Shown: piece by piece, positions 21,196 to 61,591 of the stretch
How the letters are laid out: each line of letters starts with the position of its first letter
Position numbering within the stretch: the stretch's first letter is position 1
Origin: Mesostigma viride
Taxonomy: Eukaryota > Streptophyta > Mesostigmatophyceae > Mesostigmatales > Mesostigmataceae
Assembly: GCA_009746045.1 (NCBI GenBank)
Contig: RPFO01000667.1
Coordinates: 2,588,317 to 2,652,316, forward strand
DNA: 64,000 nt
Direction: 5' to 3'
Program-made: the position numbers and the translations under genes
Notes under the pieces: generated by a model
What the model saw: the letters and a program-made list of their open reading frames with translations, nothing else
Told to the model about the DNA's origin: nothing
Database searches by the model: none

Positions 21196-23379
21196 GTTCT
21201 CTCACCTTGCTTACTCTGAGGATGATGATCTCATTACCATTGGGGATGGCAGCCAGGGCATAATTGATTTTGAGGCAGCAACCTTACTGTCCTCCCAACA
21301 CCCTGTACTGGAACCTTACATAAAAGCACTAACCCCTACTGTTGACAACTCCATAGATATCAAGGAGCTTGCTCATCAGCTGCACCTAGCCATGGGTCAT
21401 GAAACAGTGGCTGAGGAACTGGCCAGACGGCTGGGGGGTAGTAGCATGGGAAAACAACTCAGGAATGCAGTAAAACTGGCTAGACAACACTGTCAAGAAT
21501 GTCAGTTCAATAGCCCCAAACCTCAAAAATGGCATACTGCAACTCCTTCCACCACTAGAGGCATGATAGTGGGGGATGTGATGCACATCAACAAAGATGT
21601 CCAACCCTACCTGATCCTAAAAGATTCATGGTCCAGGTTCACAGTCATGGAACCCCTACCTGGCATGTCTGCAGGGCAGCTACGTGTTGCACTCATGATT
21701 GCTTTACCCAGATTCTACCCAGTTGACAGAATTTTGCTTGATCAACAATTTTCTTGTCTGACTGACCTGGAAGGGTGTGAAGCAATAGAGATTGCTGGGC
21801 TGGAAGATCATGAGGGTCAGGGGGTCATTGAAAGAACCATCAGATCTGTCAAAACCCTACTAGCCAAAATCCTTCCAAGGATGCTACTTCAGGGGTCTAC
21901 TGTGACAGGGCACTCTGGTGTCATGAAATGTGCACAACCCTAAACATGAGACCTGTCTTGCATGCCAAGTGGGGTGAAGTAATCCCAGCAGGCCTGCAGG
22001 CAGGTGTATATCCCCCAGAGGTGATAGCACTGTACAACACTGCACGTGCACAAACCTCAGCAAAACTGGCAGAAAAAGATAAAACCCATCCCAGGCCAGT
22101 ATTCCAAAAAGGTGATCAAGTTCTCTATTACAAGGAAAACAGCTTTGGTAAGGTTGGAACTTGGCTAGGTCCAGTTACCATCCGTGGATTTACCAAAAAC
22201 AGCAAGACCGTGGAGGTCAAGCACAATATCAATGGGAAGCGTCACAGGGTGAGCTGTCATAGAATTAAGAAGTATTATTCTCCCATGGCAGACGTGCCTG
22301 GGGAAGAGTCTTTAAGCATGGACTCACTACTTCTATCTGGCAACTCCAGCATGCCCAGCAGTAGCCCTGAGCCACCAATTACTGCTGTTGACAGCACCAC
22401 AGCACCCTCTGTGAACCCTTCCACCCTCAGTGAAGCCAGGCCCACTTCACAACCTGGGGATTGCTTAACCAGGCACGAGGTAGCTGGGTTGGAAGCATTA
22501 GCTCAGCCCCAAGGCACCAAATTGTCTGCCAACCCTCCCGCTCTGAGGTCAAGATTGGCAGTCGCCTTGCAAGCATTACACAGGTCACATAAGCAACAAG
22601 CTGCTGTGGCCGAAGGGTTGGCAAAAGTCTCAGCTGTGTGCACTAGTCAGGACCCCTGGACCCTGGCAATAGACACTCAGGCACAGGTCAGTGTGATCAG
22701 TGCACAAGCCATCCCTGGTCTTGAGATTGCACCTTCATTTTGGGCACGGGTGCAGGATTTCTCAGGCCAAAGCTCACTGGATGTAGTGGGACAGGTGATG
22801 CTCCCTATACTTGGTATTCAGACACCCTTCCAGGTGGTGGAGGGGTACTCTGGTAACACCTTGTTGGGGGAACCTTTTGTATCCTATCCTGGGGTGCTTA
22901 TCTCAGCTAATGAGCTCAGTGTCACAGGGGTGGGTGCAGTTCCTCTGGACCACTTTAAAATCCCTCTCTCCAGTATTGTCCCTGGTATGGATGCTGTCAT
23001 CAAGGCAGTCAACACTCAGTATGCACCAGGGGAGATCCCTGATTTGGACAAGTTAGTGCACAGCCAGTTCCTCCATCCCTCAGCCTTTGGGCTGGGTAAG
23101 TGGGACATAGCCATGCACTCACCCCACCAAATCTCCCACGTCATACAAGAATGCAAAACACAAAAAGGGTTTACCAAGTGGCTGATGGCCATTGTCCACC
23201 AAGCCAGGCAGGAATGGGTCCTGCCCAACCCCAAAAACCCTCAATACAAACCTCCTGTCACCCCTTCATGGGACGTGCCAGAGGGAGCCAAAAAGCTCAG
23301 ATTAAAATTTGTTCTCAAACAAAACCCCAAAAAGTGGGCTCCCCAATCTTCCATGCCAGACCATGTGTCACAGAATTAA
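21195..23379 (+). pseudogene. pol: element A integrase and protease-like domain
   Basis: The integrase N-terminus has the zinc finger (H in HQLHLAMGHETV, later CQECQ), and catalytic-type residues in GDVMHINKD, RILLDQQFSCL and GQGVIERTIRSVK. After a frame change near 21910-21940 an integrase C-terminal part follows (KGDQVLYYKE, GTWLGPVTIRGF). Then, about 200 residues on, comes a retropepsin-like domain: LAIDTQAQVSVIS (Asp codon 22672-22674) and later PILGIQTPFQVVEGYSG and LLGEPFV. In ordinary copia elements protease lies before integrase; here none is seen upstream. DTQ replaces the usual DTG/DSG, so activity is doubtful. Confidence 0.8.
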
Positions 23380-24720
23380 AGGGGACATCCACACTGCCAA
23401 AGGGGAAACCTACACACCTGGGCTGCAACAAACCTCACTCAGGATCATGCTCTCCCTATTCCTCCACAACCTCAATGCAGGCCAAGACTATGTCTGCAAA
23501 GCCACTGATATTAAAAGGGCCTTCCTCAGGGGGGACCCAGAAAAGGCTGAATCTGTGTGGAAAGGGAAGGTGTACGTGGTAGACACCCCAGCTGTGTGGA
23601 AACCTTACATTGATGAGCCCCACCTTATCATCAACATTGGGGTGGAAGGGCTTGTCAGTGCCCCCAAAATTTTCAGAGACTCAGCAGAGGAAGTATTCAA
23701 AAAGCTCAAGGCCACGTATGATGACCTGGACCCATGCTTTTTTGTTGTACCCACCCCCTCTGGACTGCTGCTCTTTGTGTGGCATGGAGATGACCAACTC
23801 ATTTGTGGGCCTAGAGCTGAGGTGGAAACATTTATTCAGCAGGTCCAGGAATCATATGAGATTGGCAAACAGGTGGAATTGAGCACAACCCCCATCCAGT
23901 TCTGTGGCATCATGTTGCAGCTGCATAGGCAGCCAGATCAGTGGGTCTGCTCTCTCTCCCCTCCTGCAGAATATATCCAAGATTGTCTAGATCTGCTGCA
24001 GGACAACTACCTCCCCTTACACATGTGTGCCACTGTTCAGGGCAAACTGGGGTGGTGGTCAGCCATCTGTGGGGCTCCCTTAGCTGTCATCAGCAGGGTC
24101 ACCCATGATGTTCTAGTCAAGATAAAATGCAGTCACATCAGGAAGTTGGTCAATGACTGTCCCCCCCTCATCCTCCATGGCCTGAATCTGATGGAAGACA
24201 TCCACATCCAATGTGTCATGGACAGCTCCATGGAGAGCAGAACAATCAATCAGATGGGGGCACGGGAATCAGGGCTGTTTTTTCTCACCAACAGGTCAGA
24301 TTACATGTCCCTCACTTCCTGGTACAGCAGGCTAGGCTACACCGCAGAAAACCTGGCAGCAGCAACTCAGCTGAATGTCGTGCTGTGGTGTCTGCTGCAT
24401 TGCATGCTCGTTCCCTGCAGCACATGCTCACCTGGCTACAAACCCAGGCAGGCAGCACATGCAATGTTATCTCACATCTCTACACTGACAGCTTTTCAGT
24501 GATCAGTTTTCTAACCAAGAAATCTGTTTCTGCTGCTGTCCACACTGACTTGGATTGGGTGATCCTCAAACAGGAGGCCACCTATTTTTCCAGCTGGACT
24601 CATGTGGATGATGAGGACAACCCAGCAGACGCTCTAACGAAGCTGCGGGATGCTGCTGGCCAACAGTACCAGCTCCTCTTTCAGAACATGAACCCCTATG
24701 ATATCAGAGTCAGTGTTTGA
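23309..24720 (+). pseudogene. pol: element A reverse transcriptase and RNase H
   Basis: Copia-type RT with TDIKRAFLRGD (first catalytic Asp), GLVSAPKIFRD, DPCFFV, and the catalytic box WHGDDQLI (HGDD, 23783-23794) where copia has YVDD. RNase H follows with CVMDSSMESR; after a frame change near 24350 come LYTDSFSVISFL and HVDDEDNPADALTK, the standard copia C-terminal block, with the stop at 24720. The overlapping frames around 23310-23380 show another shift at the protease/RT linker. Confidence 0.85.
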
Positions 24721-25094
24721 ATAAATGACTGGCCATAGCACAGTACACAACCACCACACCCCCTTACCACAGCGATAGCTGCTGGGCGCCATAAAATTCA
24801 ACACATTCGTTGTGGGGTGTGAGTGCTGGCTAGGTCAGATTTGTATCCATTTGCAGCTTGAGGACACAAGCTTTGTATACACTTACTTAATGTGTGCTCC
24901 AATAACTGGCCAAACCAGCCAGCTGTGTACACCTTATTTAATGTGCAATATAACACCTGGCCAGAACAGCCAGCTGTAACCAACCTGGCTCAACCAGCCA
25001 TGTCTCTTTTGTACCCCTAATCAACTTAAAAACAATAACAATAATGTTGGGGGTGCAGACCTGCATTAAGAAATAAATAATAAAACAATACTGG
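24721..25094 (+). other. 3' non-coding region of element A
   Basis: About 370 bp without a gene. It contains two diverged copies of a 'TTTAATGTGC...CTGGCC...CAGCCAGCTGT' block and one GGGCGCCATAA motif near 24785 that resembles motifs in the 3' regions of X and Y. Confidence 0.6.
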
Positions 25095-25580
25095 AGTTAG
25101 TCTCCATGCTTTGCTGTAGACTAAGTCTCAAAGGCATTGTGAATACAACGTATGAATAAGCCTTGTAAACCTACGTTGGTATGTGAATATAAATACCACG
25201 TGGGCTATGCAGATAGGAATGCTAGTCGAGTCGCATACGTTTCCCTAGATAGGTACTTTGGGTACTGGGGTACGTGACAGATGTCAGTACCCAGCATACG
25301 TAGTGTCCTGTCATTGGACAGTACTAGAGTATCCTAGATATAGGGACCGTACTGCAGCGTGCATTGATCTGTGATCACACGATGCAGTGACTAGACTGCG
25401 ACCTGTCATCGTGCGGCCTCGGGCCAACGGTCTGCACCCAACGGTCACTGGCGGCGCAGCCAGTGAGAGGAACGTTGATAAAGGGTAAACCTATTTTCTA
25501 ATGAACTGAAGCAATTCATTGCTCACAGCATACAGTGTTCTCAAGCAATATATCGCGTCGTTCATTTCTCATTCCTAACT
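25095..25580 (+). repeat. 3' LTR of element A
   Basis: 486 bp copy of 19080-19564, TATA box at 25188-25195. The preceding purine stretch is poor (AAATAATAAAACAATACTGG). Confidence 0.92.
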
Positions 25581-28893: not shown

Positions 28894-31516
28894 ACCGGCA
28901 CCACCATGATGTCTCAGAGCTCAATTAGTCCAAATTTAGCTTAAGTGGACGTCTGTATAAAGTGTGTAAAAGCACCTACCATTCTAAACAGCAGCTTAGT
29001 GGATGGCTACAAATTGGCAATCGAAGCTAACCCGATTTCTCATATTCTCTTCCCCGTGGCTCCCAACAGCCCGTGTGTGCATGTCACTACAATATGGTAG
29101 CCGCCGAGCCCAAACCTGCTTTCTCAACCCTTAGTTTCATAGGGAGGCAAGGAGGACTAACATGACCATGCGCACGACACGCAACCACTCACTTTGTTAG
29201 CCAATCATCCATCCATGCATCCATGCATCCATGCATCCATGCATCCATGCATCCATGCATCCATGCATCCATGCATCCATGCATCCATGCATCCATGCAT
29301 CCATGCATCCATGCATCCATGCATCCATGCATCCATGCATCCATGCATCCATGCATCCATGCATCCATGCATCCATGCATCCATGCATCCATGCATCCAT
29401 GCATCCATGCATCCATCCATCCATCCATCCATCCATCCATCCATCCATCCATCCATCCATCCATCCATCCATCCATCCATCCATCCATCCATCCATCCAT
29501 CCATCCATCCATCCATCCATCCATCCATCCATCCATCCATCCATCCATCCATCCATCCATCCATCCATCCATCCATCCATCCACTCATCAAGCACACGTA
29601 TATTGCGTTACATGGGTGGCAATAAAACAACCTTCAACCCCTATACATGGATTGGGAGGGCATCCAACCTTGTCTCACTGCCTCAAGTGGTCAGGCCACA
29701 ACAATTTCTCTGCATCATGGCGATACCTAACTGCGAGTGCTAAATGATTCTTGGCTTCAATGCGGCAATCAATGTGCTGCCCCTCACAGTTTAGTCCATT
29801 AGCCCTTGCCTAGTTCGTTGCAACACTTATTACACGCTGTCAACACAACAAGACACAGTACATGTCCCATTGGGGAGCCACGGAGTAATGGCATTGCCGC
29901 AGTAAATGCCAAAGTGAATGCTAAATACATCGACCCCTAGTGCAGGAATAATTAATTGGTACTCTTGTGCACATGCATGGCTGCCAAAATGAATTAAAAC
30001 ACGCAGATGGATACTTGTTTACAGAAGTTATACTTTGAATACGTCGTCGTGTAAACCAACGCTCTTCGCCCTAGGCTACATCGTTCACATTAAGCGCATG
30101 TATATGAGTATGAATATGCTACGTGTGCTGTTGCTTCAAACTTGTTCCTATACACAATCACACTGTCACAAAAACTGGCGTTCATCCAATACAGAAAACG
30201 CCCGCCACAAATTCCAAGCAGGATCTGAACGTAGACTTGGCCGTGATGCTGACCATTTCAAGCAACTTTGAATTACTGGCAAGCAATGGCGACCGTAATG
30301 TCAATCACCAGCACGCAGCACCTGCTATAAGAAAAAATCCAGCAACTACTAGCAAAAGTCAGGTGGGTGACAGGTGCGTGGGGTATGCAGTCAAGATCAA
30401 GCAGTGGAAAACATGGGCACAGTAGTGCTTCCCATCCCACGAACAGCCAAAGTCTCCCTAAAAAATGTGTTCTTGATGCACGTTTGATGCACGGGAGCTA
30501 ATCCAAAGATGTTCCCCAAGGAAATACAGGGAGAGCCTGTGGGGAAAACAGGGGGGAAGCTGCATTGCGGATAATGACCCACTGTATATGCTCCCGACCC
30601 GTTGCCGACCGAAAGCAAATGGTAAGAAACTACCTGGACGGTAATGATGTAATGGAAAGACGTAAGAAGCTTTCCCGAACCGACGGAAGGACGACAAAGC
30701 GCAGCGTGTAAGGCAGAGGCAGTTGCGTGTTGCTGAAAATGACGTGACCAAAACGGTTGCCGATCATGAAAAACCGGACCTCCATCCCGTTGCTGACGGA
30801 AACACAGTGTAGAGACGCGGCCTGGCTTGGAAGCAGGACAGTCGATGGAAAAACGTTAGACGAACTTCCCAACCGAAGTACTTACAAAAAAATGCAGCGG
30901 TAGAGACTGCAGCCTGCCTGCAGTGCAGGAACGCCAACCAGAAGCGAAGGGTTCCTGCGAAATAGAAGGAGACAGGCCGGAATACAGAGGGTAAAGTATT
31001 CCTTGGATGACGTTACGACTCGAAGTGGGTAAAAAATGGAAGTGGCCGACTGAAAAGTCGCTGGCATTTCTGCCCTGGATGGAAACGTTGGGTAAGTAAA
31101 TCGACCCGTTAGCAATAAAATGGGAAGAGCGCCCAGACGAAACAACCGCAGCTTACCCAAGCGAGATGAACTCTTTCTTGACAGTCGTCCATGCCAACGT
31201 CGGCCAGCCCGGGCCAGGTAGCTGCCGCAGCCATGCCGCACCAGAATTTGAATTTTGTGCCCGGCAACGTTCCTAAAATGCAGGAATGGCTGGGCCGACG
31301 GCCGACGCGTGGCCCGTGGCCCATGGCCCGTCGCCCGTGTTTTTACGTGCCTGCGCCTGGCCTGCCTTAACGTTGTTACGCCCGCGCACTCCCCAGCCTT
31401 GCGCACGCCAGCCTTGCGCACGCTGCGCCGCGCCCAGCCTTGCGCATTCCCAGCCTTGCGCATCCCAGCCTTGCGCATCGTCTGAAGAAATCAGTGTCTG
31501 ATGTTTACAAAAACTC
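28894..31516 (-). repeat. right terminal inverted repeat (uninterrupted, 2.6 kb)
   Basis: It is the reverse complement of 6589-8697 plus 15604-15914 and lacks the DIRS insertion. This shows that the DIRS element arrived after the inverted repeats were formed or last homogenised. It contains the CCAT/CCATGCAT microsatellite at 29205-29582. No recognisable gene. Confidence 0.88.
29205..29582 (-). repeat. CCATGCAT then CCAT microsatellite in right inverted repeat
   Basis: About 25 CCATGCAT units (to about 29412) then about 42 CCAT units. It is the mirror of the arrays at 8530-8697 and 15004-15602. Confidence 0.97.
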
Positions 31517-37687: not shown

Positions 37688-38331
37688 AGTTAGCATTTTG
37701 GGCAACCAATATGCTAAGTGGATACAGTTTGGAAAGACCTTTCCAACGCCGTGCTGACCGCCTGAAACAGACAAGGGACAAGAAAGATATCAAGTCCCGA
37801 AGTCCTAGCCATCCGTGGCCGACTAGGGTGCAGTCCTCTGGTGTAGTGGACAGGACACGTGGCAGGCCGTGCCTGCACAGGCTTAGCCTGTCTATCACGT
37901 GACTGTGGTCCACGTAGGCCAGGAGGAGCAGCAGCCTGTGACTAGTAGGGTACTGGCACTGGCACAAGGCTGCAAGGATACTAGGCCTTGCAGGCTTGTG
38001 ACAGGTCCTGTACTTCCTAGGTTGCAGAGTCTAGGCAAATCCAGTACGTCCTGGCTCTGCGCTGATGCCAGTGGACGTTGTGGATTTGCCTGCACGCCTG
38101 CACGTGCCTCGTCATGCCGATGGGAACGAGGAACAACGCAAGGATATAGCTTGGTCATGGGGGATGACCAGCTATCTCGGAAAGCACGAACCGTGGGTGC
38201 CACCTTGGTCGTGGAAGTGCCCATTGTGGTCGTGGCCTGGTGAACAGATTTAAGGTTGCTGCCTTGCAACATTGGCTAAGACGCGCTGTGAAAGACCAAG
38301 AGCTCACACCCGTTGGGAGCTCTTTCTAACT
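37688..38331 (+). repeat. 5' LTR of element Y
   Basis: 644 bp, AGTTAGCATTTTGG...CTTTCTAACT. The ORF that appears to extend gag of X into it (to 37902) is accidental read-through. Confidence 0.92.
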
Positions 38332-38356
38332 CGTATTATTGTCTCCTTACTTCTTC

Positions 38357-39544
38357 ATGTCCAACGTGCCGAGGGAACAGGCCATTGAGCCTTCGCAAAG
38401 CCAGAGCTCGCAGCCGCAGCTTCGGGTAGGAGCCCCGGAGCAATCACAACCTTTTCATCCCTACGCTCATCCGAGCACCGCATCAACCTTCGTCCAGGCG
38501 GCGTACCTGGCAAGGGGGCTAGCGAAGAAAGGTTGGGTAGCAGTTTGCGGAACTGCAGCAGGGCCGGCGGCGAGCGACCCCATTGTGATGCAGATTGAGG
38601 CTTCGACAGCTCCCGGCGAGTTATCGCGAGAGGCAGTCGAAAAGTTTGTGTCAATACGGGACGAGCTGTCCTCGACCATTTACGGTCTGGAGGTGGCTCA
38701 CCAGGGCGGGCACGTGACCGTGTCGCAGCTGGATTTGGCGCGGGAGGCACTGGGCCAGATCGTGGCTATTGGACTGGGAGCAGCGCGACTGTTTAACCAT
38801 CAGGTGGCAACGTCTGTGCTGGGCGCGGGAGTAGAAGTCCCGGACGTGATCAGGCAAGCGCAGGCGCGCGAAGTCGACAACCCCTGGTCGACAACAGAGG
38901 TGGTTTCACAAACGTGCGAACATCTCGTGAACATTCTTTTGCAGGAGTCACGGGGTAACGCAGACCGGTGGGTGATAACCACACGACCATTTGGGATTTG
39001 GTCAACACTCGATACACCGCGGGCGGCGGATCCAGACGCACACGATCCAGTGGTCGAGGTCATCACGGGTCGGGAGGTAACGCCAGAAGACTTCCATTAC
39101 CAATTCGTTGATCAGCCGGAGGGGATCATCGAACGTTCATCTCAGCAGATAGATCAAGGCGACGGTACCACAGAGGGGTACGCTGCAAGACGTCGTGCTG
39201 AGCTGCACGTCCCGCAAGAGCCCGAACACGACTACGGTGGTCGTGGGGCTTGCAACTACAAGCGGGGTGGTGGAACGCGGTGGGTGAGGAGCCTTGAGTG
39301 GGATCGCCCAAGTGGGAGCGAGCCCCGGATCCCAGTGGAGAAGTCTGCAGACGGGCGACCCGTTAGCAGAGTGTTTGGACCCTACGCCGACGGGGAGGAC
39401 GCCGCTGGCAGCGACGAGGAGCGGCCAGAGACGCCCATCGCAGCCACTGCTCAGGAGCGAGAGCTGGAGGCAGCGAACCAAGCAGGTGCTGAGTCAGTAG
39501 CTGGGACGGTGCCCACGGCATCCCCCAGCGACGCCAGTGCTTGA
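38357..39544 (+). CDS. element Y upstream ORF, unknown function
   Basis: An open frame of about 395 codons between the 5' LTR and gag. I prefer the ATG at 38357 (MSNVPREQAIEPSQS) to an in-frame ATG at 38339. It has a Gln/Ser/Pro-rich start; a helical middle with hydrophobic patches (REALGQIVAIGLGAARLFNHQ, and TCEHLVNILLQESRG near residue 190); an acidic C-terminus (DGEDAAGSDEERPETP). No Cys/His finger or enzyme motif. It ends 53 bp before the gag ATG. It occupies the same slot as the 236-codon ORF of X, but I see no clear sequence similarity. Function unknown. Confidence 0.62.
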   Translation: MSNVPREQAIEPSQSQSSQPQLRVGAPEQSQPFHPYAHPSTASTFVQAAYLARGLAKKGWVAVCGTAAGPAASDPIVMQIEASTAPGELSREAVEKFVSIRDELSSTIYGLEVAHQGGHVTVSQLDLAREALGQIVAIGLGAARLFNHQVATSVLGAGVEVPDVIRQAQAREVDNPWSTTEVVSQTCEHLVNILLQESRGNADRWVITTRPFGIWSTLDTPRAADPDAHDPVVEVITGREVTPEDFHYQFVDQPEGIIERSSQQIDQGDGTTEGYAARRRAELHVPQEPEHDYGGRGACNYKRGGGTRWVRSLEWDRPSGSEPRIPVEKSADGRPVSRVFGPYADGEDAAGSDEERPETPIAATAQERELEAANQAGAESVAGTVPTASPSDASA

Positions 39545-39597
39545 GTCAGTTCTTCCTTTTTCCTTCGCCTTTATTGTTGTGTCCCCACTTGTATATA

Positions 39598-39905
39598 ATG
39601 CCTCGTGGCAAACCGGGCGACGGCGACAAGGGCGAGGAGGGGGCACCGGCTGGAGGGAGCCAGGAGCCTGGGAAGGGCAAGGAGACGCTGGTGGGAGAGG
39701 CGATCCCAGCCAGCGACGGTGATGGGGGAAAGCGACCAGGGAGCAAAAGGCGACACGAAGACTCGGTGGAGGAGGCGCGCAAGGCGCGGGCGCTGGGGGC
39801 ATCTGATGCAATAACGGTGGCGAATGGGCAACCTGCCGTGGAGAAGCGTAAGAGGGACCCCTCTGCTGACGGCAATGGTAAGAGGACTCACGTGGATGTG
39901 CTCTC
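39598..39905 (+). pseudogene. gag: element Y gag, 5' part
   Basis: Starts MPRGKPGDGDKGEEG, a Gly/Lys/Glu-rich, probably disordered N-terminus with basic clusters (KRPGSKRRHED), and reads 102 codons to VLS at the array insertion. The frame resumes at 41443 as PVPAGPSG after one CTCTC copy, so the array interrupted an open gag. Confidence 0.78.
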
Positions 39906-41437
39906 AGTTAGGTTAATATTGTGCGGAAACCTTTTTGCCACTTGGGCTACTCAGGTTCCGCACAATATTACCGGCGATAACCACTCGCCGGACACTCAAG
40001 TTCACGACGTCGTGAACTTGAGTGTCCGGCGAGTGGTTATCGCCGGTAATATTGTGCGGAACCTGAGTAGCCCAAGTGGCAAAAAGGTTTCCGCACAATA
40101 TTAACCTAACTAAGACCTGGATCCTTGCGGGGCGCAGGTTCGAATCCACTCGGAAGCGGATTATTTGGGGGAATAATTCGTTCCGATTTGGCACCCGGCT
40201 CTAATCATATGCGCACCAAGGAGATGCTCATATTCGATCATATTCATATCGATATTTGCACCAACGAGATGCTTATATTCGATCATATTCATGCATACGG
40301 GTGTTCCGAGCCTAGTGATTCGTCCTCGCCCCAAGAGGCTAGGTTTTAGTTAGGTTAATATTGTGCGGAAACCTTTTTGCCACTTGGGCTACTCAGGTTC
40401 CGCACAATATTACCGGCGATAACCACTCGCCGGACACTCAAGTTCACGACGTCGTGAACTTGAGTGTCCGGCGAGTGGTTATCGCCGGTAATATTGTGCG
40501 GAACCTGAGTAGCCCAAGTGGCAAAAAGGTTTCCGCACAATATTAACCTAACTAAGACCTGGATCCTTGCGGGGCGCAGGTTCGAATCCACTCGGAAGCG
40601 GATTATTTGGGGGAATAATTCGTTCCGATTTGGCACCCGGCTCTAATCATATGCGCACCAAGGAGATGCTCATATTCGATCATATTCATATCGATATTTG
40701 CACCAACGAGATGCTTATATTCGATCATATTCATGCATACGGGTGTTCCGAGCCTAGTGATTCGTCCTCGCCCCAAGAGGCTAGGTTTTAGTTAGGTTAA
40801 TATTGTGCGGAAACCTTTTTGCCACTTGGGCTACTCAGGTTCCGCACAATATTACCGGCGATAACCACTCGCCGGACACTCAAGTTCACGACGTCGTGAA
40901 CTTGAGTGTCCGGCGAGTGGTTATCGCGGGTAATATTGTGCGGAACCTGAGTAGCCCAAGTGGCAAAAAGGTTTCCGCACAATATTAACCTAACTAAGAC
41001 CTGGATCCTTGCGGGGCGCAGGTTCGAATCCACTCGGAAGCGGATTATTTGGGGGAATAATTCGTTCCGATTTGGCACCCGGCTCTAATCATATGCGCAC
41101 CAAGGAGATGCTCATATTCGATCATATTCATATCGATATTTGCACCAACGAGATGCTTATATTCGATCATATTCATGCATACGGGTGTTCCGAGCCTAGT
41201 GATTCGTCCTCGCCCCAAGAGGCTAGGTTTTAGTTAGGTTAATATTGTGCGGAAACCTTTTTGCCACTTGGGCTACTCAGGTTCCGCACAATATTACCGG
41301 CGATTACCACTCGCCGGACACTCAAGTTCACGACGTCGTGAACTTGAGTGTCCGGCGAGTGGTTATCGCCGGTAATATTGTGCGGAACCTGAGTAGCCCA
41401 AGTGGCAAAAAGGTTTCCGCACAATATTAACCTAACT
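39906..41437. mobile_element. tandem array of four palindromic LTR-like repeats (TRIM-like)
   Basis: Four 206 bp repeats (39906-40111, 40348-40553, 40790-40995, 41232-41437) separated by three 236 bp spacers: 4x206 + 3x236 = 1532 bp exactly. The whole array is flanked by CTCTC (39901-39905, 41438-41442). Each 206 bp repeat begins AGTTAGG, ends CCTAACT and is an inverted repeat with two 103 bp arms around CACGACGTCGTG. Copies 1 and 2 are perfect; copies 3 and 4 have one mismatch each. The termini and 5 bp duplication match the LTRs of A and Y, so this is probably a non-autonomous LTR element in tandem form. The 61-codon frames on both strands are by-products of the palindrome. Confidence 0.85.
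40112..40347 (+). repeat. 236 bp spacer unit of the array (three copies)
   Basis: Copies at 40112-40347, 40554-40789 and 40996-41231 look identical. Each has GGTTCGAATCC, a pol III B-box match, near its start, and two diverged copies of a GAGATGCT.ATATTCGATCATA block. A possible A box TAGCCCAAGTGG lies in the preceding repeat, 57 bp upstream. The T-stem does not pair well, so it is not a tRNA gene. Confidence 0.75.
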
Positions 41438-42488
41438 CTCTCCCCTGTGCCTGCTGGACCAAGTGGTGCTGTTGTTGTGACACCCGCTGTGGTGGAGCCA
41501 GTGAGGGCGCTGCCAGGGTCGAGACCTCACATGAGTGCTGTCACTGTTATGAATGGACAAAAGCCTCTTAACCCACCACTAGCACAGGAAGCATTGGACA
41601 AGTGGCTAGAGGACATGGAGCTTGTTGTGTGCTCCGTGGACCCCACTGTCAACCTAGTGCAAGTGTTTCACTCGTCCACATGCAACAGGGACTCGTCAGA
41701 GCGTGTCAGGGAGAAGGCTAGGACTGCTGTCAAGGATAAGCTAACCTGGGCACAGTTCCTGGAAGGGTTGAGGGAAGAGTTCTCTGACAAGGTTCTCAAC
41801 CTCACCAACTACTACAAGCATCAGTATGACACCTTTGAGATAGTGGGCCCTGTGGCAGAGGAATGGGCTAGGCTCAACCGTATCAGGGACAAGGGGGCCA
41901 AGTATGGCTTCCTGGTCACAGATAGGGCCTTGGCAGACTATTTCCTGGACCGTATGGGTTTGAGTGTGGATGGGAGGAACGGTGCCCGCATGTTTCTTAA
42001 CCAGACTGATGGCTCCTTGCGTGCTCTGGAGCTTGTAATCCTCAGCATAAGGAAGCCAGATCCTGCCTGCAAGGCTATCCAGTCCCATGGCAGCAATGCC
42101 ACCTCCGCTGTGCAGGGCCAAGGTGATGTCCCCGGGTACCCAGCCCGTGATGGGGCAAGGCCCAACAAGCGTAAGCGCTTCAGGCGCCAGAGGCAGGGGG
42201 CTCAGGGTGGCAAGGGTGCAGGTTCCCAAGGAGGGGTTGGGGCCAGCAAGCTGGTGGTCAGCAGGGTAAGGGTGGCCAAGGGCAAGGCAAGGGCCAAGCT
42301 CAAGGCAACCAGGGCAAGCAGGGTGGGCAGCCTCAGGGAGGCCAGGGGAAGCCTGGCAAGGGTGGGGCTGGGTCTGGGAAGAAGGGTGGAGCATGTTTTG
42401 TGTGTGGCAAGGAAGGTCACTGGCGTCGTGAGTGTCCTGACAGGAAGGCCAAGCCTGCTGGGGCAGGAGGCCAGTCTGGGCAGCAGTG
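41438..42488 (+). pseudogene. gag: element Y gag, 3' part with zinc knuckle
   Basis: Capsid-like helical part: LDKWLEDMELVV, KDKLTWAQFLEGLREEFSDK and NGARMFLNQTDG. Then a Lys/Gln/Gly-rich linker and the zinc knuckle CFVCGKEGHWRREC (42394-42435; CX2CX4HX4C) close to the stop at 42488. The knuckle is in a different frame from the capsid part, so there is a frame change near 42200-42390. The W-x-x-F...L..LREEF arrangement is typical of retrotransposon Gag capsids. Confidence 0.8.
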
Positions 42489-42701
42489 ACTAGCTACATC
42501 ATCCCCTGTAAATAGTCAATCACCCCTTGGGGAAGGTGTGCTGGATGTACATAAGGACGGGGGTGTGCCCCTTGTGCAGCACCAAGGGTGTAAAGATGTT
42601 GTTCTTCCACTGGATTGCAATAACAATGCTGCAGCTGAATTCCCTATGCCTCATGCAGGTGGTGGGTCTCCAGCAGGTGCTGGCCTGGAGGGCCAAGGAC
42701 C

Positions 42702-45700
42702 TTGCTGGAAGGGCCTGGAGCGGTCCAGGGTGCAGGGCCTGACTTGGGGCGTCAGGACGGCCTGCAGGGAAGCCCTGGAACCTCAGGAGTGGATCATGTG
42801 TCCCCACACACGGTTCAGACGTCTCGCCAGGTCAGTACTGACAGAGTGCTGAGCTATGCTGAGGCTGGCCATAGATTGCATCATATGTTTGGGCATTCTG
42901 GGCAGGCAGCAATGTTTGCTTGGAAGCTAGGTAGGGAGCCTTTGTGGGAGGCATGCCAGGCTGCTGCTGAGAACTGTGGTTGCCAGGAGAATGCTGTTCA
43001 CCCACCTCAGTCCCATGCTAGGGAGCCTGCTAGGGAGCGTGGCGACATCCAGATGGATATCCAGCATATCAGGGGCTTGTATATATTGGTGGGGGTGGAC
43101 AGGTTCAGCAGATACAGGCTGATAGACGTTCTGCCTGGTATGCAGGAGCACCACTTGTTGTTGGGTATGAAGGCCCTGATCCCAGGCTTTGGGGTGTGCA
43201 AGAGTGTGCAGGCAGACTTGCAGTTTGACTGTTTGCTCAAGCATCAGGACCAGCTGCCTTGTAAGCTGGTAGTAGTCCCCAGGGAGAGTCATGGGCAGCA
43301 AGGGGCTGTAGAGAGATCCATACGTGAAGTGAAGACAGTGGTGCTAGCAGCAGAGTCAGTGCCACTTGTGGCATCTGCCTTAGAGAGGGCAGCCTGGTGT
43401 AAGGGGATAGAAGAGCAGCTGAACCACAGGGTTAACTATTACTTTGATGGTGTGGCTGTCTCTCCCCTGGCCCTGCAGTATAGCTTGTTGCCTGAGAACG
43501 TGGTGCAGGCCAGTCTTAGGAAGGCAGATAGGTTATTTGCCCAGCTGAGACGTAAGGACAAGAACTGGAATGTGCTGAGGCCTCAGGTGGGGCTGAAGGT
43601 CAGGATGTGGAAGGAACCATCTATTCCAGGCAAGCGGGGGAAGTGGCAGGATGGGGTTGTCACTCGTGTGGAAGAAGCTAACAGATCTTGCCTGGTGGCT
43701 TTGGAAAAGGATCCAAGGCACGTGTACAGGTTGTCCTGGGCTCATGTCAAGGAAAGAAGGCCACATGCAATCTGGCCTGCAGACGGGCCAGGCCCTCCCA
43801 GCTGGGTTGAGGAGCCAGGCCAGAGCCAGGCAGCAGCAGCTAACAATCCTCTGGTGGTGGATGATGGTCTGTCCCTGCTGGAAGATGACGAGCAGGAGGA
43901 GGCTGCTGAAGCAACTGTCACAAGGCCAGAGGGGACGGGGCAGCCACCTAAGGCCCGGGGGCCTCTCATGGCGGACGTCATCCGAGCACTCATGCGCAGC
44001 AAACATGATCCCAAGGTATCCAAGCTCACGGGGTGGGGGTCGTGCTGGGCAGCTACAATGGAGGTAGATACCAACTCACAGGTGTCTGTCATCAGGGAAG
44101 AGGATGCTGTAGGCTTACAGATGTCCCATCCCAGTTGCCTTGCTGTGTCTGATTTCTCAGGAAAGGTGTCCATGAAGATCCTTGGGGAAGTGAGTGTGCC
44201 TATCTTAGGGGTGCCCACCACGTTCTGTGTGGTAGAGGGCTATCAGGGGCCTGCCATTCTGGGTCAGAACTTCTTGTGCATGCCAGGGGTTACTTTGACC
44301 TCTGATGAGTTGGCACTAGAAGGCAGGGGCAGCCTCCCCCTTGAAAGATATCACTATTCCCAGGGTCTTGCAGTGGCGGTGAAGGCTGTTAGGAGTCAGC
44401 CAGCTGAGGGTCCTCAGAGTCAGGAGCCCATAGCTGAGGACTTGTTGATAATCCCAACCACCTTTGATCCAAGGCAGTTAGGGGTAAACAGGTACCAGAT
44501 AGCTGCTCACAGTCCTATTCCCTGGCGCCAGCTAGTCGAGATGATGCAGAGCCCCAAGATGGCTAAGGCATGGACTCTTGGCTTTGTTGCTTCTGGGCAT
44601 GAGTGGATAGTTTCCAACTGTGCAGAACCTGTGGATGAGCTGCCAGAAGTTCACCAGCTGCTCAGATTGATGTTTGTCCTCAAGCTCAAGGAGGTAGATG
44701 GTGTCCAGGTGCCACATGTCAGACCAGTTGTAACCGAGTATCATGGCACTGGCCAGTTGTTAGATGAGGAGCTCTATACTCCAGGGATGCTGCATGACAC
44801 GTGGAGGATTCTGCTGTGTATATTTCTGTCTTTTCTGGTTAAGGGTGTGCCCTATAGCTCTGTGCTGATTGATTTCAAGAGGGCTTTTCTCAAGGGTGAC
44901 CAAGATCAGGCTAGGCAGACTTGGAGAGATATCCCTCCTTTCTTTGTGACTGTACCTGCTGTATGGAGAGCAGAGATAAAGGCCAGGTACCTGAGAATTC
45001 TGAAAGGGTTGGAAGGTCTCAGGTCCAGTCCCATTATCTGGAGAAAGAGCCTAGAGAAATTCTTGAAGAATACTTGTGGGTTTTCTGTGTCTCCAGTGGA
45101 TCCCTGTTTGTTCCAAGGGTCCACAATGGCCTTCCTGTCTTTGCCTCACTGCATGGTGATGACCTGCATCTCATAGGTCCACCAGACTGGGTTGAGGCTG
45201 TCTTGGCTAAGATCCAGAAGCGGTTTGAGCTGGGTAAGATACAGCACATGGTGGAGAATGAGCCTATGGTCTTCTGTGGCATGCAGGCTACGTTGTTCCA
45301 AGCCAAGGGCTCGTGGTTCATCAGGATGGAGGGTGGTAAGGACTACCCACAGCAGATTGTGATGCATTGCAGGAGCCCATCACGCAGGCTAGGTGTGCTA
45401 CCATCAGGGGCATGCTGGCATGGCTTGCAAGTATATGTGCCCCTGACTTGCTGGTTCTGAGTCGACTTACTGATTCCCAGCTGGTTGAGGTGGGTGCTGA
45501 GAGTGTGGTGCAGGCTGTCATGATGTCTCCCCCTCTCATACTGGGTCCTGTGGATTTGTACAAGCCCCTTGACATGGTTCTCTATGTGGACAGTTCTATG
45601 GATAATAGGAAGGTCACAGAGGTCAGGGGCAGGGCAGCAGCATTAGTTACCCTGGAGCAAGATCACACCTCACTTGTTACCTGGTACAGTCGGTTGCAGA

Positions 45701-46059
45701 ACAGGGTTACACCCAGCAGTGATATTGCTGAGTGCAGGGCAATCTGTGAAGGGCTGCATACTGCTCTTTACTTGAGGGAGCTCTTCTACCAGCTATGTCA
45801 AGTGGCTTCCTGTAGGTTGCAGCTGCACACACTGGTGAGGACTGATAGCATGGGCATGGTGCAATTTGTGCACAGGCAGCTGGCCAGGAGCAGGGACCTT
45901 GACTACTTGTTGCTCAAGGAGATGTCCTACCTAGCTCACATTGAACATGTGCCTGGTGTGGACAACCCTGCAGATGCCCTCACCAAGCTGGAGGAGAAGG
46001 CGGAGAGGCAGTACCCCCTGCTCCGTGGGCTCATGGACCCCTTACACGGGCGGCCATAG
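42702..46059 (+). pseudogene. pol: element Y pol: integrase, protease-like, RT, RNase H
   Basis: The first frame (42702-45176, up to 824 codons; the ATG chosen is only the first one) holds the integrase finger (HHMFGHSGQ ... CGCQ), MDIQHIRGLYILVGVDRF, VQADLQFDC and HGQQGAVERSIREVK, then an SH3-like tail (GLKVRMWKEPS). A protease-like domain follows at residue about 450-530: MEVDTNSQVSVIR (Asp codon 44067), ILGEVSVPILG, AILGQNFL. RT starts with VLIDFKRAFLKGD, GLRSSPIIWRK, DPCLFQGS. A frame change near 45130 leads to HGDD (45152-45163), and a second near 45365 to RNase H with YVDSSMDN, SSDIAECRAI, RTDSMGMV, GVDNPADALTK. The stop is at 46059. Confidence 0.9.
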
Positions 46060-47059
46060 AGACCAGGCCTTGCTTCAGCTTGGGTGCCCCCAGTGGGCTG
46101 CTTGACCAAAGTACCAAGTGGTGACTGGTGCTTACTGGTTGACAGCCGGTCCTTCAGGGTTAGGTACACCCTCCTGGACAGGAGTTGGTGTGGAATGTCA
46201 CTCCTACCAGCTGAGAATCATGCCTGGCCCTCCCCATGGGGTTCAGAAGAGTCGCCAGGACTTAAGTCGACGCCTTTGGCCTCAAACAGTTAGGCCATGC
46301 AAGGGCAACCCGAATGCTGGTTCTTACAGGTTGCTGTATATATGTTTTCTAGTGCTTGTTTCCAACCTGTTGCTAATAAAGAACCTGGTTGTGTGACCAT
46401 GTGGAACATGGTTGCCAGGGGCCACATTCTGGGTTATATAATGCTTGAATAAAACATAATCATGTCTCTCTCATGTTGTTTCATGGTTGTAATGTTTCTC
46501 TTGTGAAGTTCCAGGTCACCTATAAACCTGGAGGTTGGGGTGGGGTTCAATTCCCCAGCAGAGCCACAGCCTGGCATGAGTGATTCCTGGGCTTAACACC
46601 CAGTGAAGACATGGGCTCCCCAATGAGGCAGTATTTGTATAGGTGCTACCTGAGTCTCTTTGAGCATAAAAGGGAAAGGCTGGCCAAGGCGGGCGCCATA
46701 AGAACGGGCGCCTGTGATAACTGTGAAAGATCAGGAACTCACAATAATACGTTCTTGGCATCCTTTAATCCCAGCCATTGGACTAGGTAATGTGCCTTGA
46801 CTTTAATCTAACACCAAGTTCCCAAGGAAAGGTTGGGAGCTGACCAAGGGGTCAGGGGATAACCTGGGGTGACCTCTGATTCACTGGCCAGTACACCTAG
46901 CCTGGTCCAAGGGCGTATATGTTGTTACCCAAAGGAGGCAGGACCTGGGCCCTATCAGGTCTGATCAACCCAAGGGACCAAGCGGTCTGTGGCTGAGTGA
47001 GCACAAGCAAGGTTAGGCTTGTTTCAAGCTGGTCCAGCTCCAAAAGAAGAAAGGGTTGG
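46060..47059 (+). other. 3' non-coding region of element Y
   Basis: 1 kb without a gene. Motifs: AATAAA near 46376, T-arm-like hairpin GGGGTTCAATTCCCC (46542-46556), paired GGGCGCC (46691-46712), polypurine tract just before 47060. The arrangement parallels element X. Confidence 0.65.
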
Positions 47060-48488
47060 AGTTAGCATTTTGGGCAACCAATATGCTAAGTGGATACAGT
47101 TTGGAAAGACCTTTCCAACGCCGTGCTGACCGCCTGAAACAGACAAGGGACAAGAAAGATATCAAGTCCCGAAGTCCTAGCCATCCGTGGCCGACTAGGG
47201 TGCAGTCCTCTGGTGTAGTGGACAGGACACGTGGCAGGCCGTGCCTGCACAGGCTTAGCCTGTCTATCACGTGACTGTGGTCCACGTAGCATTACAATTC
47301 GTTCAAGTGGCCCGCCGGAGCGGCTGTACAATTTTTCCCAGTGAGCGCGCTGCCAAGTGTACTTGTGGGCAAATTTTTAGGTGCCCCGTCACTTCGAGGT
47401 ACTAAAAATTAGGCTACGGTACGAATTCAGCGAATTTCAGCGAATTTTCAGTCGAACCAAAGGAAGTGACGCCAACTACCAAAAAGTTTCCGTTACGAAT
47501 TTTCAGCCCAACACTCGCGCAAAATGAAGTGACGGCAACTACCAAAAAGTTTCCGTTACGAATTTTCACTCCCACACGTTTGCACAAAAGGAAGTGACGG
47601 CAACTACCAAAAAGTTTCCGTTACGAATTTTCAGTCCCACACTTCGCGCAAATTTTAGTAGGGCTGCACGCAAGCTACCTTTCAAAATTTTGCGCTAGTA
47701 TGGAACGCATTTCATTCGTCTGGAGGAACGCTGCCCGCCAACTACCCCCGTTCAGAAAGTTCCGCCGAAATTTACCCGAGATTTGGAAATCTGAACGTCC
47801 GCGCAAATTTTAGTAGGGCTGCACGCAAGCTACCTTTCAAAATTTTGCGCAAGTATGGAACGCAATTCATTCGTCCGGAGGAATGCTGCTCGTCAACTGC
47901 CCCCGTTCAGAAAGTTGCGCCGAACTTTACTTGAGATTTGGAAATCTGAACGTGCGGTTGGAGTTTCGCGGGGAAACCCAAGTTCCCAAGTAATTCACCA
48001 ATGACGCGCTTCGAACACTTGTCCGCTAAAACCTAAGCAGCCGCTCCGGCTGGCCACTTAAACGAAACTTGATGGCCAGGAGGAGCAGCAGCCTGTGACT
48101 AGTAGGGTACTGGCACTGGCACAAGGCTGCAAGGATACTAGGCCTTGCAGGCTTGTGACAGGTCCTGTACTTCCTAGGTTGCAGAGTCTAGGCAAATCCA
48201 GTACGTCCTGGCTCTGCGCTGATGCCAGTGGACGTTGTGGATTTGCCTGCACGCCTGCACGTGCCTCGTCATGCCGATGGGAACGAGGAACAACGCAAGG
48301 ATATAGCTTGGTCATGGGGGATGACCAGCTATCTCGGAAAGCACGAACCGTGGGTGCCACCTTGGTCGTGGAAGTGCCCATTGTGGTCGTGGCCTGGTGA
48401 ACAGATTTAAGGTTGCTGCCTTGCAACATTGGCTAAGACGCGCTGTGAAAGACCAAGAGCTCACACCCGTTGGGAGCTCTTTCTAACT
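47060..48488 (+). repeat. 3' LTR of element Y, interrupted
   Basis: 47060-47289 plus 48075-48488 equals the 644 bp 5' LTR; the middle 785 bp is a separate inserted element. Confidence 0.92.
47290..48074. mobile_element. 785 bp inverted-repeat element (MITE-like)
   Basis: It is inserted in the 3' LTR of Y; comparison with the 5' LTR gives exact limits and shows no target duplication. Ends: CATTACAATTCGTTCAAGTG and, inverted, CATCAAGTTTCGTTTAAGTG, both leading into GCCGGAGCGGCTG. Inside are three about 63 bp repeats containing CTACCAAAAAGTTTCCGTTA (47460-47650) and two about 150 bp repeats (about 47645-47955) containing TAGTAGGGCTGCACGCAAGC. No coding. Confidence 0.82.
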
Positions 48489-49338: not shown

Positions 49339-52300
49339 ATGAAGACGTCCTTGACAGCTGATGCAGCTGTAAGTATGTCTGACCCTATGCATCCTCGTGC
49401 TGGGCACGAGGGTGGACCTCTCATGTTGAGAGAAACCAATGTACAACCACAGAGGGGTGTGAAGGCCTCTGGTGGTATGCATGTGGTCCCTGCTGGCGGT
49501 CCAGGTGTTGGGCATGAGCAGGGTGACTCAGGCTCTGAGTCAGAACAGGATGGAAGTCAGCATGGTGATGCTGGACAACCTGACAGCACAGTCCTGACTG
49601 TGCCAGGGACTGCTTCCTCTGTGTACCAGGAGTTGGGTGCCCGAATCCACAACATGTTTGGGCATGCCACTTCTCTGTCAAACAACTTTGCCTTCCGTAT
49701 GGGCAGGGCACCCCTTCTTAAGGCGTGTCAGCAAGCTGCCTCACGGTGTAAGTGCCAGTTGTCCTCCAACAAGCCCAGGAAATCACATGCCAAAGCTCTA
49801 CCTCAGAGCATTGGTGATCTACAGTGTGATATCCAACACATCAGGGGCATGCAACTGTTGGTGTGCGTGGACAGGTACACGAAATACAAGGTGCTAGAGC
49901 ATTTACCTTCTATGAAGAACAGGTACTTGCTGGCTGCCCTGCAGAATGTAAGAGCCAAGTTTCCTACCACAAGGATCCAGGTGGACATGCAGTTTCAGCA
50001 TCTCAAGGGTGATCCTACCCTTCCTGAGTTGCTGGTTACACCTAGGGAGGCTCATGGGCAGCAGGGTGCTATCGAGAGGGCAATCCAGGAGGTCAAGAAA
50101 TTGATCATCTCTGAAGACTGGGTACCCTTGTCTGCACCTGCACTTGTCAGGAGTGCATGGCTGAGGAACGTGGAGCAGCAGCTGAACAGCAGGGTTAACT
50201 TCTACTATGATGGAGTTGCTGTCAGCCCAATGGGTCTATATCATGGCCTGTGCCCACCACATGTGCTGGAGGGCTGGAAACATGCTGCACATGTCACCTT
50301 TGCCAAGCTGAGGGAGAAGGACCGGGGTTGGAAGATGCTGGAGCCACAAGTGGGTCAGAAGGTCCTAGCTTGGAAGGAACCTAGCCTTTATGGCAAACGT
50401 GGTAGCTGGAGTCCTGGGGTGGTTACCCAGGTTGATGAAGCTAGCCACGCATGCTTGGTCAGCATGGAGGACGAACCAAAGCATGTGCACCGGCTGAGTT
50501 GGTCATATGTCAAGCCTAACCTGATGAATGAGGGCAGTCAGGCACAAGGCTCACAGGATCTGCAGGATTTTCAGGTCCCAGGTGACATCACTGACGCAAC
50601 GACCACATCTGTTGCAGGGGAATCTGTCAGCCCTGGCCAGGTTGCAGAGGTACTTGTTGAACAGGCTGCAAGGTCAACAGCTGGGGAGTCAACTGTCAAG
50701 CCCAAGGCACTAACCAAGCCCAGGGGGACAAGTTTGGCTGGATTGATTGGGGCTCTACAAAGAGCCAAGAAGCAGCCCAAGGTAGCCAAGCTCAGGTGGC
50801 ATGGCAATCTGGGGCTGGACACTGCCTTAGAGGTAGACACTAATTCTCAGGTTTCCATCATTGGGACCAGGGCTGCAGCAGGGTACAGCATGTCTGAACC
50901 CAGCTATCAGTTTGTGTCTGACTTCAGTGGCGGGGTACACGTGAAGGTACTGGGTGAGGTATTCATTCCTATCCTTGGACAGGACACTGCTTTTTGTGTC
51001 TTGGAGGGCTATCAAGGACCTGCTCTTCTGGGGCAGAATTTCCTATGCCAGGATGGGGTAGTGATCACGTCCTCTCTCCTGACTAAGGAAGGGGCTGGTC
51101 AGGTCCCACTGATTAATTTCAGGACCACTCACCTATCACGTGCAGTAACCAGGACGGTTAAGCGTGTGCAAGTGTGCCAGGGGCAGGAGCCCTTGGTTGA
51201 TGACCTCATATTGCCAGCTGCTAGTCATCCAAGCAGTTTGGGCATTGGTCCTCACTCACTTGCTGGACACAGCCCTATCAACTACCAAGGCCTGGTGAAG
51301 CTCATGTCCTCTCCCATTATGTGTCCCCAGGTCACACTGGGTCTGATTAAATCTGGGGAGGACTGGATCTCCAAGAAATGCGTGGAACCTGTCAATGACC
51401 TGCCTCCTGCACGACGTCTACTCAAGCTCAAGTTTGTCATCAAGATGAAGGAGGTGGACGGGGTCAAGGTACCACATGTCAGGCCAGTGCTGAATGAGTT
51501 CAAGGGTACTGGTGAGTGCACTGCTGAGGAGTTGTATACCCCTGGCATGTTGCATGACACTTGGAGGCTGCTGCTGTGTGTATTTCTAGGCCTTCTCAAC
51601 AAGGGCTTGGACTATGGCTCAGTGGTGGTAGACTTCAAGAGGGCATTTCTGGAGGGGATGCAGATGTGGCACAGGAAAAGTGGGAGGGCAAGACGCCTTT
51701 CTATGTTAGGGTGCCTGCTGTATGGAAAAGGGACATCCACACGGAGTTCCTTAAAATCCTCAAGGGCCTGGAGGGCCTGAGGTCAAGTCCAATAATCTGG
51801 AGGGAGACTCTCAACCGTTTCCTGAAGGAGCATTGCAACTTGAAGGTCTCTCCTGTAGACCCCTGTCTGTTTCTGGGGCAATGGGAAGGCCTACCAGTGT
51901 ATGCTTCGCTGCACGGGGATGACCTACATCTGATAGCTCCCACGTCGTGGCTTAAGGAGCTGATCTCCATCATTAAGTCCAAGTTTCCTCTGGGTAGGGA
52001 GCAATGGCAGGTGGAGAATGAGCCTCTGCTGTTTGTGGGCATGGAGGCCACACTGGTGAAGAAGAGGGGGAGTGGCGTATGCTGCTGGTGGGGGGCAATG
52101 ATTATCAAGAGACCCTCATTAGCAAGCTTCCTCCAACCATCACACAGGCACTGTGTCCCATGGTGAGGGGCATGGTTGCTTGGGTGGCAGGCATTTCCAG
52201 GCCAGACCTTATGGTCATAGCCAGGTTGCCTGATGACATGCTGGTGGAGCTAGGGTCTGCCAAGGTGGCTGATCAGGTCAGGGCTTCATCTGGCATTCTG

Positions 52301-56853: not shown

Positions 56854-57362
56854 TGTTAAAGGGCATGGGGTTATTATGGGGACTTAAATTAATAATTTGT
56901 AGGTGGTGAATCATTGCCAACTTAAGCGTCAGGAGCCAGGAAAATTATTTGTTACGTCCATATGGTGTGGCTTTCCATGGCTACCTCAAGGTAGCGTGAA
57001 CATTGGTAATTATGGTAGGTGAGTGGTGGCGGCGGCCCTGGTATGGGCATGGGCCGACAATGGGTCGATAACGACAGCTGGTATGTTGGAACATGGTGCA
57101 TGCGCATGCATGACTCGGTACGGCATGGTATGACATGCACATGACACAATACTATAATCTGGTGAAGATAGTGACCAATGGTCCTAGTGCCATTGTACAA
57201 CTTGGCACATAGTCATAGTGTCCATTCACGTAGGACAAATCCCACTTAGGTACTACTATCCGAGCATATCTATTTGTTAATTAGGGCTCGAATACAATTG
57301 CCCGTATTATAGATTTCTGCACTGTCAGCATAATGGGCATATTCAAGACAGGATTCTTGACA
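56854..57362 (-). repeat. 3' LTR of the LARD-like element
   Basis: 509 bp; plus strand TGTTAAAGGGC...TTCTTGACA. CCCTCCTT (57363-57370), minus-strand AAGGAGGG, directly adjoins it as a polypurine tract. Confidence 0.92.
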
Positions 57363-57879
57363 CCCTCCTTGCACATGATGCTGTCTATAAATACAAATGC
57401 TAGATCCTGGGCGAGGGTAGTCGGGTACCTAAGTGGATTCCCTCCTTACACGACACCCTGGTCTTGATATAAAACAGCAAGAAAAATGAGGGCAAGGTTG
57501 TGTAGCCCCATATTGTCACATGGAGTGCGCCACACGAGGGTGGAGCCAAACTGGAAACAGGCTCTTAACCCCTAAACCGTCCTCGTGCCGATTTTCGACT
57601 GCGAGTTTTTCTCATGCCTCACGTTCGGCATGAGTTTGTGCGCCCTGTAGGGATTTGGCGGGAAGGTTTTGGCGGGAACCAACTAGACCCCCGAAAAGAT
57701 CTAGATTCACTCTATCCGTAGGACACTTGTCTGACCGTATTTGACCACCGTATCAGGGTGGAAACCCTGGTCAAAGTCAACAGGGTACCCTGGTGCATGC
57801 AGGTTTTGGCGGTAAAAAAAATTGACAAAAACGTACGAAAACGAAGGATGCGAAAAAAGGGGGGAGCGCGGACGTAGAC

Positions 57880-60770: not shown

Positions 60771-60834
60771 TTCATGCTTACCTATCATTTCCATGTTCAA
60801 AACTGCACTAGGATGTTTATTCTAGCCCCCCAAA

Positions 60835-61575: not shown

Positions 61576-61591
61576 ACGGTTGAGGGGTTAA

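Follow-up and report, generated by a model that had tools for sequence, protein, structure and literature searches.

The palindromic array and its insertion site

The window analysed here is a stretch of 64,000 nucleotides of the Mesostigma viride genome. Positions 39906-41437 of the window are filled by four 206-bp palindromes (P, each with arms A and A') and three 236-bp spacers (S, or S' when reversed), with the target duplication CTCTC on either side (39901-39905 and 41438-41442). From left to right, the array consists of P1 (39906-40111, dyad between 40008 and 40009), S1 (40112-40347), P2 (40348-40553), S2 (40554-40789), P3 (40790-40995), S3 (40996-41231) and P4 (41232-41437), the spacers being given on the forward strand. 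The two arms of each P abut with 0 bases between them, and the three S are mutually identical. P1 and P2 are perfect palindromes and P3 and P4 contain a single mismatch each (40928 C>G and 41305 A>T, respectively); both this composition and the two imperfections had been described in the original prediction and are confirmed. Chance repeats are ruled out: the 21-base end of P occurs 8 times in the window and 0 times in 100 shuffles. A scan of the arm start against viral contigs gave 0 matches.

The array resides in LTR element B (37688-48488, forward strand), which has LTR ends AGTTAG..CTAACT and the duplication ACTGC. The insert and one duplication add up to 1537 bp, which is 1 mod 3, and exactly this shift separates the reading frames of the ORFs that start at 39541 and at 41402. 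The continuity of the interrupted frame, which was predicted to be an open gag frame that rejoins when the insert is removed, fits this arithmetic, whereas its identity as gag finds no such backing, the ORF at 41402-42490 matching no Pfam family. A paralogous empty site (L035:1133-1732) aligns to the two flanks of the array over 600/600 gapless bases at 91.5% identity, and other copies also have gapless empty sites, for example, L039 compared with window positions 50051-50650 (99.7%). The array is therefore a precise insertion.

The AGTTAG..CTAACT ends, together with 5-bp duplications, are found in two full-length LTR elements of the window, element B and element A (19080-25580, forward strand; LTR AGTTAGTCTCC..TTCCTAACT, duplication CCAGG), and the palindrome array has these ends in common with both; the LTR of a further element, C, has the ends AGTTAA..CAACT. 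The group of element A is the candidate helper. That the array is a parasite of the AGTTAG..CTAACT group, as originally proposed, agrees with the common ends and with a captured gag-like stretch described below; the label copia-like holds weakly, the sole RVT_2 match, in element A (E 0.00074), scoring 19.6 bits against a cut-off of 31.6. At 20595-20877, element A contains 72-73-bp tandem repeats and stops where the related locus L055 has a gag-like ORF, and this copy may lack an intact gag.

Copies across the genome

A search of the 440-Mb genome yielded 1410 P|S junctions, against 0 for the reversed control. For the family of the window copy (F1), 51 loci were collected and 14 were removed as their 30-nt flank repeats that of another locus, leaving 37 sites, which are the best matches to the window copy and not a random sample. 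Most of the removed loci represent the same place twice, and another three (L015, L028 and L029) stem from duplication of a region and lie on other contigs. The same insertion with its flanks is found on different contigs, two of them reversed, in L012/L015 and in L006/L028/L029, which appear to be duplicated regions or unmerged haplotypes.

Among the neighbouring S pairs at the 37 sites, 31 are divergent (P-S'-P-S-P), 8 are tandem, including one (L005) that depends on a 31-bp S' fragment, and 0 are convergent. Classified by the order of S, 27 sites hold a simple divergent pair (in some of these P is rearranged), 3 hold a single S and 7 have other arrangements. The single-S copies (P-S-P; L009, L038 and L049), each with its own duplication, have the TRIM-type layout of direct terminal repeats around a short non-coding interior, as does the window array. 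The first 100 listed of the 1410 junctions, a less selected sample, include 38 pairs at most 800 bp apart, with 34 divergent, 3 tandem and 1 convergent (C100). A genome pattern search for the divergent central P returned 65 places, F1 and F2 (a diverged family, see below) mixed. The expectation that a tandem array is the characteristic form is thus not borne out: divergent inverted dimers dominate, and the four-P tandem of the window belongs to a minority.

Target duplications at the 37 sites are 5 bp long in 34 cases and 6 bp (poly-C) in one, and are missing from two, namely, L001, where an LTR of the element A type has overwritten the end, and L041, which starts at the centre of P. The anticipated 5-bp duplication of its own for each copy is thus seen, at 5-6 bp, at 35/37 distinct sites. 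The target positions at 35 sites display a weak palindromic preference. A deletion between direct repeats is seen in L013, in which one P is cut to 73 bp. The asymmetric variant S' 10A>T recurs at the separate sites L006 and L016, and S' and S differ within one element in L033, L042, L043 and L050.

Symmetry of the palindromes

Long perfect palindromes are usually unstable. Of the 104 F1 palindromes that were parsed (including the 73-bp one of L013), 90 are perfect; the sequence of 48 departs from that of the window P, and 34 of these are perfect all the same. Non-identical P are present in 14/37 elements by script count, some by way of single mutations; L052 contains three distinct P, each perfect, and in L032, L044 and L052 the P differ by mirrored pairs. 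Across these 14 elements, the mean arm difference is 1.1 positions within one P (42 P) and 3.5 between different P (88 comparisons), which implies that one arm serves as the template for copying or correcting the other. Changes shared by several P are mirrored, and fresh one-sided changes persist in P3 and P4 of the window.

Defects are concentrated towards the middle of P: in 6/14 imperfect P, one falls in the central 6 bp (binomial 1.5e-6, one defect per P assumed). Perfect P account for 30/33 at the left, 30/37 in the centre and 30/34 at the right of the elements, and imperfect P are not clearly commoner mid-element than at the ends. The centres of perfect P come in the variants GACGTC, ACCGGT, GCCGGC and AACGTT.

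Joints near the palindrome centre

ACGT occupies the dyad of P1 (40007-40010), and a search aimed at the boundary |ACGTCGTGAAC, two bases off the P centre, found non-canonical sequence beside it in eight loci (L016, L036, L037, L041, L042, L043, L046 and L047). An F1 arm is joined at the boundary to a short F2-like stretch in L036, the arm is repeated from the boundary out to the exact outer end in L037 and L042, and an outer end is attached to the boundary in L046. On the side facing the centre, the full set of 222 matched arm ends shows GACGTC in 182 cases, ACCGGT in 14 and other sequences in 26, the latter including symmetric centre variants and mixed centres without the boundary (L047, L048 and L050). 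The ACGT at the dyad would correspond to the putative 3' end of the minus-strand cDNA (..GACGT) and to the putative 5' end of the RNA, and the odd joints fit ..GACGT-3' strands that act as templates or as joining partners. Identical ends would be left by nucleases cutting a hairpin open two bases beyond its tip. Such nucleases, or breakage after insertion, could yield the same ..GACGT ends, and the odd joints alone are therefore no proof of reverse transcription.

In L016, the sequence running on from the boundary comprises three unassigned bases, a foreign stretch of 83 nt and the final 15 bases of S. Among the 40 scored of 272 candidates, 39 other places match this stretch at 100% identity. 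At L055 the 83 nt fall in a gag-like ORF with a Cys-rich motif, read by eye, and the L055 DNA just downstream of them is 87% identical to window positions 20968-21425, inside element A; the capture thus agrees with parasitism on that group. For the 83 nt, gag RNA packaged in a virus-like particle would be a simpler source than capture during break repair, which is possible, the source being abundant.

Diverged families

Three diverged families resemble F1. In F2 (L051:3586-4130, duplication CACCC) and F2b (L050:1208-2092, duplication TACGG), which are partially identical to F1, P again measures exactly 206 bp, and F2b, like most F1, is a divergent dimer. In F3 (L053/L049, duplication GTCCA), S measures 507 bp and P 78 bp, the palindrome being perfect in one copy and carrying 3 mismatches in the other. 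Common to F1, F2, F2b and F3 are the ends AGTTA..TAACT, the S start AARAC and the S end GTTTT, and in all families a B-box-like GGTTCGAAWCC follows AARAC by some 20-30 nt. The F2 matches listed, parsed by eye with the better-scoring orientation taken at each place, comprise 17 divergent pairs and 1 tandem pair, clusters C1391, C777, C1868 and C402 and a partial match in C2111 being excluded; cluster C1391 may hold a second convergent pair. In one F1 palindrome (L036:3038-3245), the centre is taken up by a short stretch resembling F2, so that two families meet in a chimera at this joint.

Folding and promoter-like motifs

The smaller inverted repeats that had been named within the arm are present. 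The left arm of P1 includes, on the forward strand, hairpin A (39914-39970, with the stem 39914-39928 pairing with 39956-39970) and hairpin B (39971-39991, CCGGCGA TAACCAC TCGCCGG); both recur in F1, F2 and F2b, with paired changes noted by eye. The DNA fold of the arm reaches -26.3 kcal/mol, compared with a shuffle mean of -9.4 (z -7.6; equalled by 0/200 shuffles). For S, a rod in which the first bases pair with the last is predicted in F1 (RNA fold of S1), F2b and F2, the fold of arm and S of F2 being matched by 1/200 shuffles.

Several motifs on the forward strand resemble parts of a polymerase III gene: TAGCCCAAGTGG in the right arm (40068-40079), read in the sequence, which we take to be A-box-like; GGTTCGAATCC (40137-40147), common to F1, F2b and F3, which is presumably B-box-like; and the TTTT that closes S (40344-40347), common to F1, F2, F2b and F3. 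The presence of an internal TTTTT in F3 and the loss of TAGCCCAAGTGG in the common, amplified 44A>T subfamily argue against polymerase III. Moreover, the chance of having no internal TTTT is not small (0.29 for F1, 0.39 for F2 and 0.45 for F2b), and on these three grounds a firm claim for polymerase III has been dropped. A tRNA gene is rejected, ARAGORN predicting no tRNA in the window. An Rfam RNA is rejected as well, the window having no match at the gathering threshold, 5S RNA gene included; the sub-threshold miRNA matches merely mirror the hairpins. S begins with AAGACCTGG and ends with CTAGGTTTT, and by eye no usual PBS or PPT is apparent. An origin of the geminivirus or CRESS-DNA kind is also rejected, the string CAATATTAC, which we take to be a geminivirus-like nonanucleotide motif, lying mostly in the stem of hairpin A and not in a loop.

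Comparison with known elements

The palindrome family shares features with several known types of elements. tRNA-derived SINEs have a B-box-like motif in the 5' part, a 3' T-run and no coding capacity, and the palindrome family likewise combines such a motif with a T-run and a non-coding sequence; unlike SINEs, it is bounded on either side by LTR-like repeats, its ends are exact and it has 5-bp duplications. The telomeres of parvoviruses such as AAV are palindromic ends with smaller internal hairpins, and their products include inverted dimers, all of which have counterparts here; the palindrome family differs in having no capsid or Rep and in the almost one-sided orientation of its dimers. 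Foldback or hairpin elements are DNA transposons with long inverted repeats and structural variants, like those of the palindrome family, in which, however, the ends and the duplication match LTR elements. The pFOXC linear retroplasmids are described as reverse-transcribed linear elements with a clothespin (hairpin-like) structure, but, unlike the palindrome family, they are mitochondrial plasmids that encode their own reverse transcriptase and are protein-primed (PMC3035579).

The nearest published relative, so far as the passages compared here allow, is Cassandra. These plant TRIMs are described as tiny and non-coding, with tandem arrays of LTR and internal domain and a polymerase III promoter in the LTR; their LTRs are predicted to be complementary and their internal domain self-complementary (PMC7215508). 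Both Cassandra and the palindrome family are thus tiny non-coding LTR elements with tandem arrays, and the predicted complementarity in Cassandra makes self-complementary LTRs as such less novel. In contrast, the Cassandra promoter is a 5S RNA gene, to which the palindrome family has no match, and its arrays are direct; the passages on Cassandra mention neither an exact palindromic LTR nor divergent inverted dimers, both of which are features of the family described here. The ta-TRIMs of Echinococcus, as presented in the portions of PMC4558846 used here, have two short LTRs, a short interior without coding capacity and some tandem copies, attributed to unequal crossing over, and in these respects resemble the palindrome family; in the text of that article, 'inverted' is absent and 'palindrom' occurs solely in a reference title. 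Across titles and the beginnings of abstracts, no prior exact palindromic LTRs, divergent dimers as the main form or palindrome-centre joint were found, phrases on palindromic LTRs referring to retroviral integration or DNA forms, or to LTR-finding software. We file the family as TRIM-like, not as a proven TRIM, our reservations concerning the primer site and the identity between the LTRs.

Origin and propagation of the palindromes

We give about equal weight to accepting and to doubting that the family is a non-autonomous, TRIM-like retroelement of the LTR type, the LTR of which consists of two mutually reverse-complementary halves. The use of LTR machinery is suggested by the 5-6-bp duplications, the weakly palindromic targets and the ends in common with LTR elements. 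The retroelement model is further supported by the divergent bias (31 divergent, 8 tandem and 0 convergent pairs at 37 sites, and 34, 3 and 1 among the 38 pairs of the first 100 junctions listed), by the symmetry of variant P (34/48 perfect, and each of the three in L052), by the eight odd joints, the central defects (6/14) and the gag-like capture in L016, and by the S rods. The lack of a recognised PBS or PPT counts against it, and at least one convergent pair (C100) runs counter to it.

The promoter, the priming and the helper in this model are putative. A would be U3, A' would be R-U5 and the P|S boundary would be the primer site. Transcription would start at the centre of P, and the RNA would consist of one arm (A') and S. 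With priming at the P|S boundary, A' would be copied to strong-stop DNA (A + GT), which would have the same sequence as U3, making a second LTR at the RNA 3' end unnecessary. The cDNA 3' ends, ..GACGT, would join one another through the self-complementary ACGT or, alternatively, the enzyme would switch templates by moving to a second cDNA at the 3' end of the latter; this would rebuild P and give rise to P-S'-P-S-P, or to single or tandem forms. Divergent pairs would be favoured and convergent ones disfavoured because the free 3' end would always be on the A' side of S, and tandems would result when more units are joined at the same end. The integrase of the AGTTAG..CTAACT retrotransposons would then insert the product. 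The most speculative step is self-priming, in which the 3' UUUU of the RNA would fold back on the beginning of S. If cDNAs of different RNAs were simply joined, P that differ within one element and yet are each symmetric would not be expected, and such P count against the model in that form; local hairpin correction would be our preferred addition to account for them.

The unusual template route envisaged in the original prediction looks right. A more radical version, in which the 3' LTR has dropped out of the copying cycle, the centre-started transcript primes itself, strong-stop DNA supplies the missing half and cDNAs join head to head, is possible but doubtful. If it holds, inverted dimers would be the normal product and perfect palindromes would be remade in each cycle. 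With the palindrome being both a product and a tool of reverse transcription, an LTR element could work without 3'-LTR strand transfer, the inverted-dimer insertions would be explained, and the family would offer a natural system for testing end-to-end template joining by retrotransposon enzymes. At stake are 1410 P|S junctions with mirrored arm changes, maintained despite the usual instability of long perfect palindromes.

Among the alternatives, we regard as unlikely an intermediate of linear DNA closed by hairpins that have no loop, following the logic of parvoviruses or telomere resolvases. Each P would then be such a hairpin after opening, replication around the hairpins would yield inverted dimers, and the extended form would be inserted by an integrase or a transposase. 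This would account for the separate symmetry of each P and for the ends two bases past the tip, but it predicts convergent pairs to be about as frequent as divergent ones, against the observed 31 divergent versus 0 convergent, and 34 versus 1 among the first 100 junctions listed; no candidate enzyme was found, and the gag-like capture in L016 better suits reverse transcription. An origin as a foldback DNA transposon or MITE, with P-S'-P-S-P as a 1090-bp palindromic unit moved by a transposase and the other forms derived by deletion or unequal exchange, similarly strikes us as improbable. The single P-S-P copies with their own duplications (L009, L038 and L049), the differences between S' and S within one element (L033, L042, L043 and L050) and the match of ends and duplication to the LTR elements of the window all speak against it, although the dimer is the commonest form and the presence of S' 10A>T at separate sites (L006 and L016) would be explained if whole dimers moved.

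We hold it quite improbable that this is a TRIM of the usual sort, in which a palindromic LTR originated a single time, with recombination between copies producing dimers and arrays and gene conversion or replication slippage matching the arms. Tandem arrays are on record for TRIMs, as far as the parts of PMC7215508 and PMC4558846 drawn upon here describe them, and deletion between direct repeats is seen in our data (L013). Inversion between palindromes, however, predicts equal numbers of convergent and divergent pairs, and random inversion of this kind is rejected by the orientation bias; moreover, one-sided changes persist in P3 and P4, yet changes found in several P are mirrored. Finally, errors of sequencing and assembly arise easily at long perfect palindromes, but an assembly artefact has a negligible probability and is rejected as the main cause in view of the 37 distinct sites and the paralogous empty sites; the many different duplications, the site-specific mirrored variants and the diverged families with the same 103-nt arms also contradict it.

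Other repeats and ORFs

Several other repeats were encountered. A near-perfect palindrome with arms of about 139 bp or more (L021/L022, centre near 3067 in L022) lacks the AGTTA ends and is a repeat of another kind. In the window, a 2.1-kb inverted repeat (6589-8697 and 29411-31516, 99.7% identical, about 20.7 kb apart) terminates in simple-repeat arrays, and a tyrosine recombinase ORF (13217-14182; Phage_integrase, E 4.6e-8) lies near 861-bp direct repeats at 9983-11810. An ORF for a piggyBac-type transposase (57880-60300; DDE_Tnp_1_7, E 5e-50) is located between 510-bp direct repeats that are 99.8% alike (56854-57363 and 63039-63548), so that 56854-63548 has an LTR-like arrangement around a DNA transposase.
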